A stretch of DNA of 40,574 bases from assembly GCA_002725625.1 (NCBI GenBank), contig PBQI01000001.1, forward strand, positions 35,102 through 75,675, read 5' to 3'. The stretch's first letter is position 1; every line of letters starts with the position of its first letter. The notes beneath the pieces were generated by a model. That model ran no database searches. It had not been told where the DNA came from and was given only the letters and a program-made list of their open reading frames with translations. Below are positions 12,640 to 37,111 of this stretch, piece by piece. This DNA is from Rhodospirillaceae bacterium (GTDB taxonomy: Bacteria; Pseudomonadota; Alphaproteobacteria; Rhodospirillales; UBA2165). The translations under genes and the position numbers were made by a program.

Positions 12640-13530
12640 ATGAATCATCTACGTCTAATATTGTATTCGACCAGACCGCGACAATGGGTCAAAAACATGT
12701 TTCTGTTTGCAGCTCTAATATTTGACAGGAAGCTGTTTGTAATTCCCTACTTGAGTAAAACTCTATATGGCTTTATTTTATTAACCCTAATTAGTGGGGC
12801 AGTTTATATAACAAATGACATTCTCGACCTGGAACAAGACAAGCTGCACCCCACCAAACAACTCAGACCACTACCGTCCGGACAACTAACAAAGCAAATA
12901 GCAGTAGGCATGGCAATACTTCTCCCATTAGTAGCTCTTCCGTTATCGTTTCTACTAAACTCTTGGTTTGGGACCATACTTCTAATCTATTGGCTCCAAA
13001 ACATATTGTATTCAATCTGGCTCAAACACATAGTTATATTAGACGTATTACTAATATCATTAGGATTCGCATTACGTGTCGCCGCTGGAGCCACACTAAT
13101 TGACGTTGAGCAAGGTCCTATTGGCTCCCCCTGGATATACATGTGTGTTGGATTTGGCGCATTATTGGTTATTTTAGGCAAGCGGCGCAGCGAGCTAAAT
13201 CTACTCTCAGATCTCGCCGATAATCATCGTGCAGTTTTAGCATCCTATAACCATAAATTCATTGACTTATTGATATATTGTGTATCTACATCCACTATTA
13301 TCTCTTACTCTTTTTACACGTTCAATGCAACATACCATCAGCCAAAAAACCACAGCATGATGCTTACAATACCTTTAGTAGTATATGGCGTTTTCAGATA
13401 TCTATACTTAGTGCATGTTAAAGGCGAAGGTGGTACGCCTGAACAACTTGTCTTTAAGGACCAGCCACTGCTTTTATCAATAATCCTTTGGATAATCACC
13501 GCGACAGTGCTTAGGTACAATTATCGGTGA
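12640..13530 (+). CDS. UbiA-family polyprenyl-phosphate phosphoribosyltransferase (DPPR synthase-like)
   Basis: A 296-residue polytopic prenyltransferase of the UbiA superfamily, closest in motif pattern to mycobacterial decaprenyl-phosphate 5-phosphoribosyltransferase (Rv3806c). Visible signatures are RPRQWVKN (residues 12-19), the metal-binding N59-D60...D63...D67-x-x-H70-P71-x-K73-x-x-R76-P stretch, and GKRRSEL after the central helices. The known reaction joins PRPP to polyprenyl phosphate, the first step to polyprenyl-phosphoryl-arabinose or -ribose. The frame runs open far upstream, but that part is antisense to tlyA. I place the start at 12640 (12634 also possible), just after TATAAT. 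It overlaps mevalonate kinase by 4 bases (GTGA). Confidence 0.85.
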   Translation: MNHLRLILYSTRPRQWVKNMFLFAALIFDRKLFVIPYLSKTLYGFILLTLISGAVYITNDILDLEQDKLHPTKQLRPLPSGQLTKQIAVGMAILLPLVALPLSFLLNSWFGTILLIYWLQNILYSIWLKHIVILDVLLISLGFALRVAAGATLIDVEQGPIGSPWIYMCVGFGALLVILGKRRSELNLLSDLADNHRAVLASYNHKFIDLLIYCVSTSTIISYSFYTFNATYHQPKNHSMMLTIPLVVYGVFRYLYLVHVKGEGGTPEQLVFKDQPLLLSIILWIITATVLRYNYR

Positions 13531-14495
13531 TCAATAAGACTTTCACTTCAGTATCGTCCAGGGCGCCCGGAAAATACATAATAATAGGCGAACATGCCGT
13601 GGTTCACGGAGAGCCCGCACTAGCCGCACCCCTAGATTCGCTGAGTAGCATTGCAACCATAAATCCTACACAACCTAATGGTAGTAATGGCCTAAGCATT
13701 ACCGCACCTGATATAAACTTGTCAGACTATTTACACTCGCTGCATCAAAACCACCCAATTGCGGATATTGTTCGGCGCACACTTCTAGCGATAAATTACC
13801 ATGACTCTTTATCGGCCAATCTAACGATTACGTCTACCATACCAATCGCATCTGGCCTAGGTTCTAGTGCATCTGTTTCAACAGCAATATCACGTTCCAT
13901 AGTCAAATTCTTAAATATACCCCTAACTGATAATGAAATATCAGCTATTGTATACAAAACCGAAGAACTACAACACGGTAACCCCTCAGGAATAGACAAT
14001 ACAGTGATCGCACATGAAGTTCCGATGCTCTACTCCAAAGTAAGTCCGCCTAAACACTTGCGACCAGCCCAGTCTCTATATTATGTGCTTGCCGATAGTA
14101 AATACCCCAGTAATACTATTGCGACGGTAGATTCGTTTAGTAAGCAACGACTGCTACAAAGCACTTTATTCGACCGCAATATACGTAAAATAGGCAAATT
14201 AGCAAGGTCCGCCTCCATTGCATTCCAAGATGGTGACCACACAAAACTTGGCACACTAATGACAAAGAACCACATATTGTTACAACAGTTGGGCGTGTCA
14301 ACCAAACAGCTCGACAAGTTGGTCAATATAGCAATTGAGGCTGGGGCCAAGGGCGCTAAGTTATCAGGCGCTGGTTACGGCGGTCATATAATCGCTCAAG
14401 TCAGCAAACAAACTATGCTCACAGTTGCCAATGCTCTCAAAGCAACAGGCACAAATCCGCTAACAGCAACCATCAAACCACATTCACATGAATAA
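13527..14495 (+). CDS. mvk: mevalonate kinase
   Basis: A 322-residue GHMP kinase that phosphorylates mevalonate to mevalonate 5-phosphate in isoprenoid synthesis. The three GHMP motifs are clear: RAPGKYIIIGEHAVVHGEPA (12-31), IPIASGLGSSASVSTA (105-120) and LSGAGYGGH near residue 280. PSGIDNT (153-159) carries the mevalonate-kinase catalytic Asp157. The GTG start overlaps the UbiA stop. Its 3' end overlaps the start of isopentenyl phosphate kinase by 8 bases, so the three are one translation-coupled unit. No phosphomevalonate kinase, decarboxylase, HMG-CoA enzymes or IPP isomerase are in the window. Confidence 0.92.
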   Translation: MINKTFTSVSSRAPGKYIIIGEHAVVHGEPALAAPLDSLSSIATINPTQPNGSNGLSITAPDINLSDYLHSLHQNHPIADIVRRTLLAINYHDSLSANLTITSTIPIASGLGSSASVSTAISRSIVKFLNIPLTDNEISAIVYKTEELQHGNPSGIDNTVIAHEVPMLYSKVSPPKHLRPAQSLYYVLADSKYPSNTIATVDSFSKQRLLQSTLFDRNIRKIGKLARSASIAFQDGDHTKLGTLMTKNHILLQQLGVSTKQLDKLVNIAIEAGAKGAKLSGAGYGGHIIAQVSKQTMLTVANALKATGTNPLTATIKPHSHE

Positions 14496-15312
14496 TAATT
14501 ATTCAAACTTAATTTACATCAAACTTGGTGGATCTCTTATTACCAATAAAAAGACCGAGTCCACTGCACACCCAACTACCATAAAGCACCTCGCAGCAGA
14601 GATTTACAATTTCAAATCTTCCAACCCAGCGACTCAAATCATTGTCGGACACGGTGCCGGATCATACGGACACATCCAAGCACTTCGAAACAAATTACAT
14701 TTATGCGCCCACAGCTCTGAAAGATGGTCCGGAGTACTAGAAGTAGCGCAAGCGGTCTCCCAACTCAGCCGTATTATCCAACGGGCACTACACTTGGCAG
14801 GATTACAAGCCAAGTTATTTCACCCATCAGAATCAGCTATTTGTCGCGACAAACAATTAAAATCCTTAGATACAACAAAGATAAAGCACACTATTGACAG
14901 TCAAGTAATCCCATTAATACACGGGGACATTTGCTTTGATGAAACCTGCGGAGCATCAATCATATCTACAGAATCTATCTTTGCCTACATTAGCACAAAG
15001 TTACAGCCAACCAACATATATATTGCCGGCACGGAGCCAGGAGTATATGACAGCTATCCTGACGGCAATATAATACCCGCAATATCAGCTTCATCAAGGA
15101 ATACCTATTTCACAAACATAACTACATCTAAATCACCAGATATTACCGGCGGAATGAAATCCAAAGTAGACATTATGCTTGAGCTAATTCGCCATTACCC
15201 CGATATCACAGTCCGCATTTTCTCCGGCACCAAACCGGGGAACCTAACTAACGCACTTACCGGACAATACGCTATGGGAACTATACTGTCGGACAATCAT
15301 CCTCATTCATAA
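14488..15312 (+). CDS. ipk: isopentenyl phosphate kinase
   Basis: A 274-residue amino-acid-kinase-fold enzyme that phosphorylates isopentenyl phosphate to IPP. The signature is IKLGGSLITNK (residues 11-21) and GHGAGSYGH (54-62). H62 matches the histidine that contacts the substrate phosphate and separates this family from other amino-acid kinases. The C-terminal TGGMKSK and GT.PG blocks are also present. Together with the preceding mevalonate kinase it implies the alternative route in which phosphomevalonate is first decarboxylated and then phosphorylated, known from haloarchaea and from the chloroflexote Roseiflexus. The missing decarboxylase must be elsewhere in the genome. Confidence 0.93.
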   Translation: MNNNYSNLIYIKLGGSLITNKKTESTAHPTTIKHLAAEIYNFKSSNPATQIIVGHGAGSYGHIQALRNKLHLCAHSSERWSGVLEVAQAVSQLSRIIQRALHLAGLQAKLFHPSESAICRDKQLKSLDTTKIKHTIDSQVIPLIHGDICFDETCGASIISTESIFAYISTKLQPTNIYIAGTEPGVYDSYPDGNIIPAISASSRNTYFTNITTSKSPDITGGMKSKVDIMLELIRHYPDITVRIFSGTKPGNLTNALTGQYAMGTILSDNHPHS

Positions 15313-32127: not shown

Positions 32128-33294
32128 ATGAGACAAAACAACATAATCGTACAAGTAGAGAGTCTACCCGAACTTATAAGATCACAAACGCTTGAGTTGA
32201 ACGATCGGGTATGCAACCTTTTCACAAAGGAAATGTGTAATAGCATAGACCACATAATTACGACTGGATGCGGAGACTCACACATGGCGGCGATCGCAAC
32301 CGAACTAGCATTTGAGCAACTCACAAAGATATCGACTGAGCCCCTCAACGCACTAACCGCAAGCAGATATGCTCTAGCCACCAACCACACCAACATCACA
32401 AAAAACACCCTTGTGATTGGCACATCCGTATCAGGCACAGTAGTACGAACGCGCGAAGCATTAGGCATTGCTCGCGACCAAGGCATGATTACAGTCGCTA
32501 TTACTGCTAACCCATCATCACCATTCGGACAAACGGCTAAGCATACCCTGGACTGTACCGTACCAAATTTCATTGATTTTCCAGGCGTACGTTCATACCG
32601 AACTTCTTTGGTGGTGTTGTACCTTATAGCCATCAGAATTTCAGAGGCAAAAGACATAATCACTCCCACTAGAGCGCATCAGTTGCGCAGCGAACTTATC
32701 TCCACAGGAGATGCAATTGAAGCCACAATAGAAGCTAACAGGGACACAGTCATAGAATTAGCGCACAATCTTACGACACAGAACCATTTTGTCTTTGTAG
32801 GGCATGGTCCAAATTACGCTACAGCCATGTTTGGAGCAGCTAAGCTCCTCGAGGCAGCCGGAACACATGCTCTAGCGCAGGACACAGAAGAATGGGGGCA
32901 CTTACAATACTTTACTAATGCCGATATAGATACACCAACATTCATAGTTTCACCAGGTAGCAGGAGTCACAACAGAACAGCGGAAATGCTTATTCCTATG
33001 AATAGAATAGGACGTTATACGATAGGAGTCTGTCCATCTGGGGACAATACAGTAGGAGAACAATGCGATGTCTTTCTGCCCGTCGTCGGTAATACACCTG
33101 AGATATTTTCACCAATCGTCTATCCAACAGCCACCGAGCTATTTGCAGACCATCTAGCCTCAAATTTAGGAGAGGATTATTTCCGTGGATTTAAGGATCT
33201 CTATGACGTCACAGACCTTAATCCATTAAATGGAAATAGCATCCGCACGAGTCAACAAGCTACACTAGATGAGATACTGAAAAATCAGAGTTAG
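32128..33294 (+). CDS. double-SIS phosphosugar isomerase/deglycase-like protein
   Basis: A 388-residue protein made of two SIS domains in the arrangement of the GlmS isomerase half. SIS1 has TTGCGDSHMAA and GTSVSGTVVRTREAL (the Ser-rich phosphosugar loop); SIS2 has FVFVGHGPNYATAMFGAAKLLEAAG and AQDTEEWGHLQYF. The N-terminal glutaminase domain of GlmS is absent, so it cannot take ammonia from glutamine. Similar stand-alone proteins are FrlB/FraB-type deglycases of phosphorylated Amadori compounds and AgaS-like amino-sugar isomerases. The following PfkB kinases could supply a phosphorylated substrate. The exact reaction is unknown. Confidence 0.75.
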   Translation: MRQNNIIVQVESLPELIRSQTLELNDRVCNLFTKEMCNSIDHIITTGCGDSHMAAIATELAFEQLTKISTEPLNALTASRYALATNHTNITKNTLVIGTSVSGTVVRTREALGIARDQGMITVAITANPSSPFGQTAKHTLDCTVPNFIDFPGVRSYRTSLVVLYLIAIRISEAKDIITPTRAHQLRSELISTGDAIEATIEANRDTVIELAHNLTTQNHFVFVGHGPNYATAMFGAAKLLEAAGTHALAQDTEEWGHLQYFTNADIDTPTFIVSPGSRSHNRTAEMLIPMNRIGRYTIGVCPSGDNTVGEQCDVFLPVVGNTPEIFSPIVYPTATELFADHLASNLGEDYFRGFKDLYDVTDLNPLNGNSIRTSQQATLDEILKNQS

Positions 33295-33336: not shown

Positions 33337-34320
33337 ATGGTTAACTATATATCCAATCCTACACAGCCAAACCTGAGCCAAGTCACAGTAATAGGTGATG
33401 CTGGTGTTGATATCATAATCCAACTACCTAAATCACAGGACCAGGCGACTTCATTCAACATAATTCGGCCAATCCTTTCACCGGGTGGAACAGCAGGAAA
33501 CACATCATTATCTCTTGCCCGACTTGGTCATGATGTAACCATGTTTTTTGCTATCGGCTCCGACAGCTACGGGAAATACTTACTGCGCGCATTAGAAGAC
33601 GCAAATATAAGTACGGAACATGTTCATGTCTCACAAGATCATTTCACATTGCATGTCAATGTAATCATTGACCACCTAGGCGAGAGGCACTTCGCTGGAA
33701 ATCCTTATGGCAACTGGGCTTCCGTGTATTATCCGCCTGATAAGGTATCCCATGAAGCAATTGCCAAATCTAGTTGGTTGCATACCACTGGCAATAGTTT
33801 CGATCGTGGAACTACTCCCCAATCTACAATACGATCCATGACAATAGCAAAACAACACAAAATTCCAATATCGCTTGATCTTAACCTGCGCGATCCAAAC
33901 AATCAACTACCTAACCAGTACAAACACGCCATATCGGAAGCAATAGAACTTGCCGATTATGTATTAGGGTCTGCCGATGACGAAATAGCACTTTACACTC
34001 AAATAGATGACCGGAGTAAAGCCGCGCTTGCACTTTCGGCCGGAAAGCGAACCATAATTTCGAGATTAGGTTCAAACGGATGTCTAGTAGCCACACCGTC
34101 AGGTGAAATTACGAAGATACCATCCTATAAGGTGAAAGTGGTAGACACCTTAGGAGCCGGAGACTCATACAATGCCGGTTTTATATCTGCAAAGCTAGAT
34201 GGTGCTTCCACAATCGAAGCTGCCAGAAGAGGCAATGCAATAGCTGCACTCTGTGTAGCAAGTGAAGGCGTAACTGAAAACATTACTATCGAATCAATGC
34301 AGGCACTTATGAATGGTTGA
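33337..34320 (+). CDS. PfkB family carbohydrate kinase, copy 1
   Basis: A 327-residue ribokinase-fold kinase. PfkB motif 1 is GGTAGNTSLSLARLG...GSDSYGKYLL; motif 2 is DTLGAGDSYNAGF with catalytic Asp276 and an intact GAGD anion hole. DLNLRDP in the middle is the pattern seen in 2-keto-3-deoxygluconate and fructo-/fructosamine-type kinases. Substrates of this superfamily include sugars and nucleosides, and sequence alone does not choose. It lies 42 bases after the SIS gene, on the same strand as a second PfkB gene. Confidence 0.85.
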   Translation: MVNYISNPTQPNLSQVTVIGDAGVDIIIQLPKSQDQATSFNIIRPILSPGGTAGNTSLSLARLGHDVTMFFAIGSDSYGKYLLRALEDANISTEHVHVSQDHFTLHVNVIIDHLGERHFAGNPYGNWASVYYPPDKVSHEAIAKSSWLHTTGNSFDRGTTPQSTIRSMTIAKQHKIPISLDLNLRDPNNQLPNQYKHAISEAIELADYVLGSADDEIALYTQIDDRSKAALALSAGKRTIISRLGSNGCLVATPSGEITKIPSYKVKVVDTLGAGDSYNAGFISAKLDGASTIEAARRGNAIAALCVASEGVTENITIESMQALMNG

Positions 34321-34376
34321 TTACTAAACCCAAACACTATCACAACCATGTCACTCTTACAAACAACAGCCATAAT

Positions 34377-35372
34377 ATGGAAAATAACATTAATCCAACA
34401 TACTCCTTACCCAACAGCCTTCTAAACAGACCACTTGCTATCCTATCTTTAGGATCATTCGTTCTAGAGCGAGTAATTAAACTATCTGGCTGGCCACAGG
34501 CTGGTGGACAAGATAATATCACTATAGAATCAATTACCAACACCTTTGGAGGTTGCGCAACGAGCGTTGCCTGCTTTGCCGCTCGCTTCGGGCTCAAATC
34601 TTCAATCATTAGCATGATCGGTGACGATGAGCCATGCCTTACCGCTCTTAAGGAATTACGTGATGCTGGCGTAGCCACAAATCACATGTCCCACTACACC
34701 AATGAACAAGGAAGTCTTATTCGCATCCTTGCCGACCCAACTGGTGAATGGGCATCCTTGAGTATGATAAATCCTAACCTTCAATTCCGCATGGCAGATC
34801 TTCCATCCATTGACTACTTCAGAACCACTAAGATTCTGCACATCGACGGCTATGCATCCCTTAGCCCACTAGGTAACGAGGAGGTAGTATTTGAAGCCAT
34901 CAGTCGAGCTACTGATGCGGGTTGCGTTATATCAGTTGATGCTTGCGTTCCCACCGCTAAACATGCCACCGGCCTATTGAAACGCATATTCGGTTACGCA
35001 GATATTACCTTTGCAAATCTATCCGAAGCACAATTACTCACAGGAGCCGACACACCAACCGCCATAATCGATTCATACCGCCGAATGAATTTAGATTTAG
35101 GGATAGTAAAAAACGGAATGCACGGTTCCTACATAGCTACTCCAACATCAAGCGTACATATTCCTGCATACAAAGTAGATGTGATAGACTCCATAGCCGC
35201 AGGGGACGCATATGTAGCCGGACTGTTGGCTTCCTTATGCAAAGGAATACCACTCATCGAGTCCGCCAAATGTGCAAGCGCATCCGGAGCACTAGCTTGC
35301 CAAGGTGCTGGCTCTTTAAGTAACCACTTTTCATTTAGTGATGTGGCCAAGATGATTTCTCAAGTACAATAA
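34377..35372 (+). CDS. PfkB family carbohydrate kinase, copy 2 (altered GAGD)
   Basis: A 331-residue ribokinase-fold protein, clearly diverged from the copy before it. Motif 1 is FGGCATSVACFAARFG...GDDEPCL. Motif 2 reads DSIAAGDAYVAG: the catalytic Asp277 is kept, but the first Gly of the GAGD anion hole is Ala. Activity is likely but may be modified. I start at the ATG at 34377; a TTG at 34317 that overlaps the previous stop would add 20 unconserved residues. It lies 56 bases after copy 1 and 87 before the phosphorylase pair. Confidence 0.8.
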   Translation: MENNINPTYSLPNSLLNRPLAILSLGSFVLERVIKLSGWPQAGGQDNITIESITNTFGGCATSVACFAARFGLKSSIISMIGDDEPCLTALKELRDAGVATNHMSHYTNEQGSLIRILADPTGEWASLSMINPNLQFRMADLPSIDYFRTTKILHIDGYASLSPLGNEEVVFEAISRATDAGCVISVDACVPTAKHATGLLKRIFGYADITFANLSEAQLLTGADTPTAIIDSYRRMNLDLGIVKNGMHGSYIATPTSSVHIPAYKVDVIDSIAAGDAYVAGLLASLCKGIPLIESAKCASASGALACQGAGSLSNHFSFSDVAKMISQVQ

Positions 35373-35459: not shown

Positions 35460-36305
35460 ATGAATAAACTACCAGAATACATACATGAACGCATGGGCGG
35501 AAAGCTACAAAAAGGCCAGATCGCCGACTATGTAATAGTACCAGGCAGTCAGGCTCGAATCGAAACGATAATCTCCTACTGGGACGAACACAGTAAACTA
35601 GCGCACCACTATGAATTTTTGGTACATTCAGGCATGCTGGAAGGACAAGCAATCACCGCATGCTCAACGGGAATAGGCGGACGCTCCACCTCAATAGCAA
35701 TTGATGAGATGGCGGCACTTGGGGCCAACACCTTTGTCAGAATAGGAGTTACTGGTGGTATACAGCCAAATATGCAAGTCGGAGACTTAGTAATTGCATC
35801 TGGTGCGGTCAGAATGGACAAGACCAGTGAACACTATGTATTTCTCGAATATCCTGCTGTAGCTGATTTGGAAGTTACATGCGCACTGATTGCAGCTGCA
35901 CAATCGGAAGGTTGTAATTTCCATGTGGGTATCGGAGCAACTGCATCATCATTTTATGCAGGCCAAGGTATAACGTGTCTCAATGGTTACCGTACTACTA
36001 AAATGGATGCCATAGCTTCTGACATCAAAGCAGCAAACGTTTACGACTGGGATTCAGAAACTGCAACTATATTCACTCTTTGCAATCTTTACGGTCTCCG
36101 AGCTGGGCGCCTAAACGTAATAGTAGATGATCCAAATACAGGTCTTTACAATCCAACTGGCGAAGAAACTGCAATCAAAGTAGTTACCGAGGCTGTCAAG
36201 TTACTAATGAAATGGGACAAAACAAAACTCGCCACAAATGACGAAGTTATGCTACCCGAATATCCTCCCAAAATCCATGCAAGCAAAACCCAAGGAAATA
36301 AATAG
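35460..36305 (+). CDS. uridine-phosphorylase-like protein, copy 1
   Basis: A 281-residue NP-I family protein that aligns without gaps to E. coli Udp over most of its length (VIVPGSQAR, ACSTGIGGRSTSIA, RIGVTGGIQ, LEYPAVADLE). Conserved: ribose-side H9 and E200, phosphate-side G29, R33 and R94, uracil-side F165 and Q169. Changed: Udp Arg48 is Y51, Thr94 is V97 and Arg168 is I171. Two of the usual phosphate contacts and one base contact are therefore missing. It may be a phosphorylase with other specificity, or a hydrolase (nucleosidase). The second copy starts 2 bases after its stop. Confidence 0.82.
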   Translation: MNKLPEYIHERMGGKLQKGQIADYVIVPGSQARIETIISYWDEHSKLAHHYEFLVHSGMLEGQAITACSTGIGGRSTSIAIDEMAALGANTFVRIGVTGGIQPNMQVGDLVIASGAVRMDKTSEHYVFLEYPAVADLEVTCALIAAAQSEGCNFHVGIGATASSFYAGQGITCLNGYRTTKMDAIASDIKAANVYDWDSETATIFTLCNLYGLRAGRLNVIVDDPNTGLYNPTGEETAIKVVTEAVKLLMKWDKTKLATNDEVMLPEYPPKIHASKTQGNK

Positions 36306-36307
36306 TC

Positions 36308-37111
36308 ATGTCAAGAGATTATGTCCACAGAAACTTTGGTGGCAAATGTAAACCCGGAGATATAGCCCCATACGTAATAGTAACAGGTAGTAAGACTAGG
36401 GTCCGAAACCTAACGTCAAGATGGGACAAGTATGATGAGATAGCTGACGACTACGAATTCCTAGTTTGTACAGGTACACTTCATGGAAAACCAATTTCAG
36501 CCTGCTCTACAGGTATTGGCGGTATGTCTGTATCAATTGCCATTGAAGAACTCGCACGACTTGGAGCTAAAACGCTACTTAGAATTGGGGTAACGAGTCC
36601 TTTAGCAGATGAACTTGATTATGGTGATTTAGTTCTAGCCAAAGGTGCCGTACGATGGGACGGCACAAGCCACGATTATGCTATGCCCGAATATCCTGCC
36701 ATTGCACATTTTGAAGTACTTATGGCCTCAATGGTAGCCGCTAAGACACTGAACTACCCATACAAAGCAGGAATAATAGCAGACATGGCTTCGCTTGGAC
36801 CAACAACACATGATGGCTACAGAGGATATCTTGCTACAAACACAGAAATAATGGCTGCATCTCTACATAATGCCGGCGTACTCAATGGAACGGGCGAAGC
36901 AGCCACCATGCTTGTACAGTCCTCAATATACGGGCTTAGATCAGGAGTAATTAACGTCAATCTTCTCAATCAAGCGACTAAAGCCTGGGACCCAAAAGAA
37001 GATGATCGAGTAGTCACCTGTGGATTAGAAACTATTTCCGTATTGCAGCGCTGGGATGAGTTAAAGTTGGAATCAGGCAATCAGTATATGGTTCCGCAAA
37101 TTACAACATAA
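36308..37111 (+). CDS. uridine-phosphorylase-like protein, copy 2
   Basis: A 267-residue NP-I family paralogue of the gene before it. It keeps H7, G27, R31, R92 and E197 but shares the two phosphate-site changes: Y49 in place of Udp Arg48, and V95 in place of Thr94. Its base-binding loop is rebuilt: FYxGQ is replaced by LGPTT (163-167) with a three-residue deletion, so it should not recognise uracil in the usual way. The 2-base gap points to coupled translation with copy 1, perhaps as subunits of one hexamer, which is inference. It ends the plus-strand cluster. Confidence 0.8.
   Translation: MSRDYVHRNFGGKCKPGDIAPYVIVTGSKTRVRNLTSRWDKYDEIADDYEFLVCTGTLHGKPISACSTGIGGMSVSIAIEELARLGAKTLLRIGVTSPLADELDYGDLVLAKGAVRWDGTSHDYAMPEYPAIAHFEVLMASMVAAKTLNYPYKAGIIADMASLGPTTHDGYRGYLATNTEIMAASLHNAGVLNGTGEAATMLVQSSIYGLRSGVINVNLLNQATKAWDPKEDDRVVTCGLETISVLQRWDELKLESGNQYMVPQITT

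Follow-up and report, generated by a model that had tools for sequence, protein, structure and literature searches.

Two genes that adjoin on the forward strand of the 40,574-nucleotide stretch of DNA analyzed here (hereafter, the window; positions 35102–75675 of contig G000:C1, in a bin labelled G000) both encode uridine phosphorylase-like proteins, UP1 and UP2 (Table 1), which raises the question of why one locus should carry two such paralogues and which reaction their products catalyze. The two proteins are 41% identical to each other and fall in the NP-I phosphorylase superfamily (PF01048; 109 bits for UP1 and 60.8 bits for UP2, against a gathering cut-off of 25.1); the best match of both is the uridine phosphorylase model TIGR01718, with scores (235.3 and 176.9, respectively) that lie below its curated cut-off of 280.3. 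Fold matches were obtained to Escherichia coli Udp for UP1 (1rxs, E = 2.2e-21; Foldseek) and to Streptococcus pyogenes UP for UP2 (3qpb, E = 5.6e-18), and the structure models, which were built from seven-sequence alignments and have pLDDT values of 72 and 77, confirm the fold only, the active-site loops being of low confidence. The open reading frames agree with an earlier note on this DNA in leaving a gap of 2 bases between the genes, and the location of a Shine-Dalgarno-like AAGGAA about 10 bases ahead of the UP2 start suggests that translation of the two may be coupled. Where dS was measurable, dN/dS was 0.06–0.10 for UP1 and 0.05–0.12 for UP2, indicating that both genes are under purifying selection and are equally constrained. 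A frameshift or assembly artefact was ruled out, since both frames are open, lie side by side in 9 of 9 genomes and have dN/dS values <0.13.

Table 1. Features of the UP1–UP2 locus (positions in the window).
Feature	Position	Strand	Basis or remark
SIS, double SIS-domain protein, GlmS isomerase-domain-like	32128..33294	+	PF01380, synteny
PfkB1, second PfkB-family kinase	33337..34320	+	present in clusters of the window's close relatives
PfkB2, PfkB-family sugar kinase	34317..35372	+	PF00294
UP1, NP-I family protein, proposed catalytic subunit	35460..36305	+	281 aa, ATG
Shine-Dalgarno-like AAGGAA within the last bases of UP1	36292..36297	+	read from sequence
UP2, sister paralogue, proposed partner subunit	36308..37111	+	267 aa, ATG

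The contig that carries the window is very probably misbinned and of Anaerolineales (Chloroflexota) origin, as indicated by its G+C content, its closest relatives, its gene order and the absence of the pair from the bin's own relatives. The G+C content of the window is 0.43, compared with 0.50–0.565 in 9 of 11 other sampled contigs of the bin; the remaining two have values of 0.495 and 0.415, the latter contig (G000:C150) possibly sharing the contaminant source of the window contig, and proteobacterial-looking genes were found on another contig of the same bin. The nearest relatives of UP1 (79–85% identical) are encoded by the Anaerolineales MAGs UBA3001, UBA3499 and UBA1136, in which the gene order of the window, including a convergent SUF operon, is matched. 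A search of 100 genomes related to the bin did not detect the pair: the one full-length match (in G076) is a Udp of the ordinary type, having both Arg48 and Thr94, and the others are short and weak. No relatives of the pair were found among the viral contigs searched, and plasmid records yielded just distant Udp/DeoD-type matches of <60% identity. The search of Chloroflexota covered several hundred genomes (roughly 800, in overlapping draws) and brought the number of genomes with a complete pair to nine (the window, G100–G105, G662 and G742), always in the order UP1 then UP2. In G104 (FK_Sedi_A_Bin.25), a second, strongly diverged pair, UPa–UPb, is located upstream in the same cluster (L026:4388-5997).

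To describe the active sites, we use the residue numbers of E. coli Udp, in which Arg168 and Arg223 are uracil contacts. In a Udp-type dimer, each site draws its phosphate, ribose and base contacts from its own subunit and receives His8 and residue 48 from the neighbor. Further residue roles were taken from papers on human UPP1 and Bacillus subtilis PNP. Closure of the human UPP1 dimer involves contacts of Arg94 with phosphate and of His36 with ribose, each subunit giving one guanidinium to the phosphate (PMC2664818), and in B. subtilis PNP, Arg43 is supplied by the adjacent subunit (PMC3434127). Alignment to E. coli Udp bore out the residue assignments of the earlier note: in both proteins, Arg48 is replaced by Tyr (Y51 in UP1, Y49 in UP2) and Thr94 by Val (V97 and V95), and His8 (H9/H7), Gly26 (G29/G27), Arg30 (R33/R31), Arg91 (R94/R92) and Glu198 (E200/E197) are kept, so that three residues of the Udp phosphate set are retained and two, Arg48 (donated by the neighbor) and Thr94, are changed. 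The His8 match is the least certain of these equivalences because the N-terminal spacing varies, with 17 residues to Pro25 in Udp and 19 in UP1. In the base site, as had also been noted, UP1 retains F165 and Q169, with I171 in place of Arg168, and the base loop of UP2 is altered; the latter reads ASLGPTT and is one residue shorter. Several changes were additionally identified: Pro-Gly-Asp27 has become PGS or TGS (Asp27 to Ser); the near-universal Glu-Met-Glu at 196–198 is D[ST]E in UP1 and TGE in UP2; and the Arg223 contact is lost. The uracil-binding set Gln166/Arg168/Arg223 is represented in UP1 by Q169 (Glu in some members), I171 and P225, and in UP2 by none of its residues.

Across the family, Tyr48 is found in 9/9 UP1 and 10/10 UP2/UPb sequences, Val94 in 9/9 and 8/10, and the His8-equivalent His in 9/9 and 10/10; Gly26, Arg30 and Arg91 are invariant throughout UP1 and UPa. 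Two features separate the paralogues. An Asp located 23 residues beyond the Glu198 equivalent (D223 in UP1) is present in 10/10 UP1/UPa sequences and 0/10 UP2/UPb sequences, and Udp position 72 is Arg in all UP1 proteins (R75), Thr in UPa, and Met, Thr or Gly in UP2/UPb.

The changes at positions 48 and 94 were then placed on a maximum-likelihood tree of 41 proteins, in which UP1 plus UPa (97/92) and UP2 plus UPb (95/85) are sister groups with a joint support of 100/99. Arg48 is invariant, and position 94 is Thr or Ser with a single Gly, in 19 related proteins that do not belong to the pair (14 from Chloroflexota genomes; Udp and DeoD themselves not counted); together with the tree, this indicates that Tyr48/Val94 is ancestral to the pair and defines its clade, as the earlier note had proposed to check. 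Independent origins of Tyr and Val in the two copies were ruled out, because the tree places both in the common ancestor. UP1 without an adjoining UP2 was never seen among the Chloroflexota genomes searched, and many other PF01048 genes are present in the pair-bearing genomes. The two genes thus always travel together, adjoining in nine genomes, and the tree indicates that they stem from one old duplication followed by joint inheritance; strict co-inheritance of sister paralogues is the pattern expected of subunits of one heteromer. Tandem Udp-like genes of the ordinary kind, in which Arg48 and Thr94 are intact, are present in pair-bearing genomes as well (L051, L059; G100:C104) and form a natural internal control. 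Chloroflexota additionally contain several NP-I paralogues that have diverged and whose base-site residues are changed (L067 of G124, L088 of G742), and one that has Gly at position 94.

The distribution of losses between the paralogues is asymmetric. In UP2 of G662, residues of the protein's own site are changed (G26T, R30H, R91Q, T94L), as they are in UPb of G104 (G26N, R30S, R91Y, T94P), and both proteins keep the His and Tyr48 that a neighbor would receive. UPa shows the reverse: Gly26, Arg30, Arg91, Val94 and Glu198 are kept, the His is lost and position 48 is occupied by His. Owing to these complementary losses of own-site and donated residues, a UPa–UPb dimer would have one complete site and another lacking both halves. 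In the two UP2-type proteins, own-site and donated residues are lost in 6/6 and 0/4 cases, respectively (p ~0.005), and in UPa in 0/5 and 2/2 cases (p ~0.05); both values treat the positions, which are not fully independent, as exchangeable and, with so few cases, are indicative only. Three proteins, encoded by the two MAGs G104 and G662, underlie this argument, and the G104 contig is of low coverage. UP2 of the window keeps Gly27, Arg31, Arg92 and Glu197, the own-site losses being confined to UP2 of G662 and UPb of G104, and could be active in its own right. Arg versus Met, Thr or Gly at position 72 points to an asymmetric UP1/UP2 interface. Ser73, one residue further on, is an interface K+ ligand on the dimer axis (PMC2664818); an Arg placed at such a two-fold axis would presumably lie opposite itself in a UP1 homodimer and opposite Met in a UP1–UP2 dimer.

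Based on these patterns, we propose that UP1 and UP2 are translated together and assemble into a single mixed enzyme of the NP-I family, most likely from three UP1–UP2 dimers; both proteins retain the trimer-contact motif, as YPAV and YPAI. The working site would be that of UP1 (Gly29, Arg33, Arg94, Glu200 and Asp223), completed by His7 and Tyr49 of UP2, and the site of UP2 would have little or no activity, being entirely dead in some lineages. A heteromer with one working UP1 site is modestly favored on this comparative evidence. Among the versions of a shared new chemistry raised by the earlier note, the mixed hexamer accordingly emerges as the best supported, by co-occurrence, sister paralogy and complementary loss, and the nucleosidase version is weakened. 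The mixed enzyme would cleave nucleosides by phosphorolysis in a rebuilt phosphate pocket, and if cleavage is indeed its function, phosphorolysis is the probable mode. Purine nucleosides are suggested as substrates by Asp223 and by the loss of the uracil-binding Arg residues, and a purine preference is inferred accordingly; the equivalent of DeoD Asp204 in B. subtilis PNP, Asp203, protonates purine N7 (PMC3434127).

The loss of two phosphate contacts described in the earlier note stands, but new chemistry does not follow from that loss alone, as the invariant R75 might compensate. The pair could be a phosphorylase that depends on phosphate in the ordinary way but has a remodelled pocket, in which UP1 Arg75 or Tyr49 of the partner, the candidates for replacing the Arg48 and Thr94 contacts, makes up for Arg48. 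This explanation invokes no new chemistry, is compatible with a heteromer, and draws on the invariance of Arg75, which lies close to the dimer axis and the K+ site, and on the finding that human UPP1 holds phosphate by two of three Arg residues (PMC2664818). UPa also lacks Arg48, yet has Thr at the Arg75 position, and we regard the explanation as a serious possibility that falls short of an even chance.

The genes around the pair bear on the fate of the sugar. In each of the clusters identified, the gene immediately preceding UP1 is a PfkB2 orthologue, and PfkB2 is 36–78% identical to the kinases of the other clusters compared with 26% to PfkB1. In close relatives of the window, the double-SIS protein, which is the first gene of the run (TIGR01135, 115 bits against a cut-off of 418), and the second PfkB kinase are beside the pair and an isomerase is not. 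The run in G662 consists of genes for a Bmp (PnrA-like, PF02608) substrate-binding protein, an ABC ATPase, two permeases, a TIGR00725 protein, PfkB, UP1 and UP2, and genes judged by sequence likeness to encode a Bmp/PnrA-like nucleoside-type ABC importer lie upstream in G104 and G105. The TIGR00725/SLOG cluster 4 protein, possibly a nucleotide-processing enzyme, is encoded just upstream of PfkB in two clusters (L095:7013-7597, L026:5961-6551). An IF-2B-family gene lies directly behind UP2 in G104 and, as the second gene after UP2, behind a GntR regulator in G742; the best match of both is TIGR00511, ribose-1,5-bisphosphate isomerase (136–175 bits against a cut-off of 314). In G100, nine bases separate an IF-2B homologue from the PfkB2 paralogue that precedes it, and a TIGR00511 relative with a higher score (225 bits; cut-off, 314) is encoded elsewhere. 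The PfkB kinases score ~100 bits against a ribose-1-phosphate (R1P) kinase cut-off of 330, and ribokinase models match them about as well. Several IF-2B-family paralogues, each adjoining a PfkB kinase, occur in Anaerolineales genomes (L131, L129 of G100), possibly representing several sugar-1-phosphate routes. Elsewhere in the window (13527-15312), adjoining genes that were judged by eye to be mevalonate kinase-like and isopentenyl phosphate kinase-like would amount to a mevalonate branch of archaeal type in a bacterial genome.

In haloarchaea, one operon encodes a uridine phosphorylase homologue (guanosine phosphorylase), a PfkB R1P kinase and a ribose-1,5-bisphosphate (R15P) isomerase, which lead from guanosine to RuBP (PMC9700705). 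The resemblance of the present gene context to this operon favors phosphorolysis over hydrolysis. Ribose-1-phosphate released by the pair would be converted by the adjacent PfkB kinase to ribose-1,5-bisphosphate, which would pass to the IF-2B-type isomerase in several genomes. This pentose-bisphosphate route is put forward tentatively, and the explanation as a whole, combining heteromer, phosphorolysis and pathway, is the best available and about evenly balanced between right and wrong. RuBisCO was weighed as a sink of the pathway and not upheld, since family members are present only in G104, G105 and G662 and absent from 5 of 8 relatives.

A nucleosidase, with the pair (mixed or not) using water in place of phosphate, releasing free ribose, and with PfkB acting as a ribokinase, would be consistent with the loss of two of five phosphate contacts in the common ancestor, with the constant presence of a PfkB gene beside UP1 and with the indecisive kinase scores. 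The invariant Gly26, Arg30 and Arg91 of UP1 and UPa are unexpected without a bound anion, and an IF-2B-family gene accompanies the pair in two clusters and, in G100, a PfkB2 paralogue. IF-2B-family sugar isomerases act on C1-phosphorylated aldoses, so the linked genes point to a C1-phosphorylated sugar, and a nucleosidase is considered unlikely. Also unlikely, and rated slightly lower, are two separate homohexamers with different base preferences, adjoining merely through a common role in nucleoside salvage: purifying selection on both genes, the retention of Gly26, Arg30, Arg91 and Glu198 in UP2 of most lineages, and a UP2 base loop unlike that of UP1 would all fit, but the genes are never apart in nine genomes rich in other PF01048 genes, and the UP2 anion site was lost twice with the partner-useful residues kept, UPa having lost exactly those residues. 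A two-gene nucleoside-cleaving enzyme that has its only working site split between two NP-I paralogues, one catalytic and the other not, and that uses water or another acceptor instead of inorganic phosphate, suggested by the loss of the donated Arg and of Thr, is improbable. That UP2 is a duplicate undergoing decay, or a subunit that only regulates and contributes nothing else, as the degenerate sites of G662 UP2 and G104 UPb might imply, is very improbable given that its dN/dS equals that of UP1 and that the degenerate copies specifically retain His and Tyr48.

The proposed mixed enzyme can be set against several known systems. It shares with E. coli Udp the fold, ~40% identity, Gly26, Arg30, Arg91, Glu198, the GIGG motif, the K+-site residues Glu49/Ser73 and the 'FPAV'-type trimer contact, and differs in its two adjoining paralogues, the substitutions Arg48 to Tyr, Thr94 to Val and Asp27 to Ser, the altered Glu-Met-Glu, the lost uracil contacts and the TIGR01718 scores. 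Like the DeoD-type hexameric purine nucleoside phosphorylase, UP1 has an Asp at the catalytic Asp204 position (Asp223, 23 residues after the Glu, as in DeoD Glu181-Asp204), but the pair is closer to Udp overall, and the equivalents of Arg43 and Ser90 are Tyr and Val. The operon logic of phosphorylase homologue, PfkB kinase and isomerase follows the haloarchaeal non-carboxylating pentose bisphosphate pathway (PMC9700705), whereas the present clusters are bacterial, contain two phosphorylase genes rather than one and, in the window, a SIS gene; the isomerase is near the pair in only 2 of 9 genomes, and the curated-model cut-offs are not reached. Division of labor between an impaired or inactive-alone catalytic subunit and a catalytically dead paralogue is found in trypanosomatid deoxyhypusine synthase (PMC3663545) and AdoMetDC/prozyme (PMC5201418), with unrelated folds and organisms and with complexes that were shown biochemically, whereas the present one is deduced from genomes.

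NP-I nucleoside phosphorylases are textbook homo-oligomers. A search of the open-access literature found no report of a heteromeric NP-I phosphorylase in which one subunit is catalytic and the other a donor; heteromers of catalytic and dead paralogues are thus, as far as found, known from other enzyme families and not from nucleoside phosphorylases. Through the residues donated between subunits, this pair would offer a clean natural case in which to test how symmetry in an enzyme gives way to obligate asymmetry. In addition, the clusters suggest that the pentose bisphosphate route described from archaea (PMC9700705) has a bacterial counterpart serving the ribose of nucleosides.
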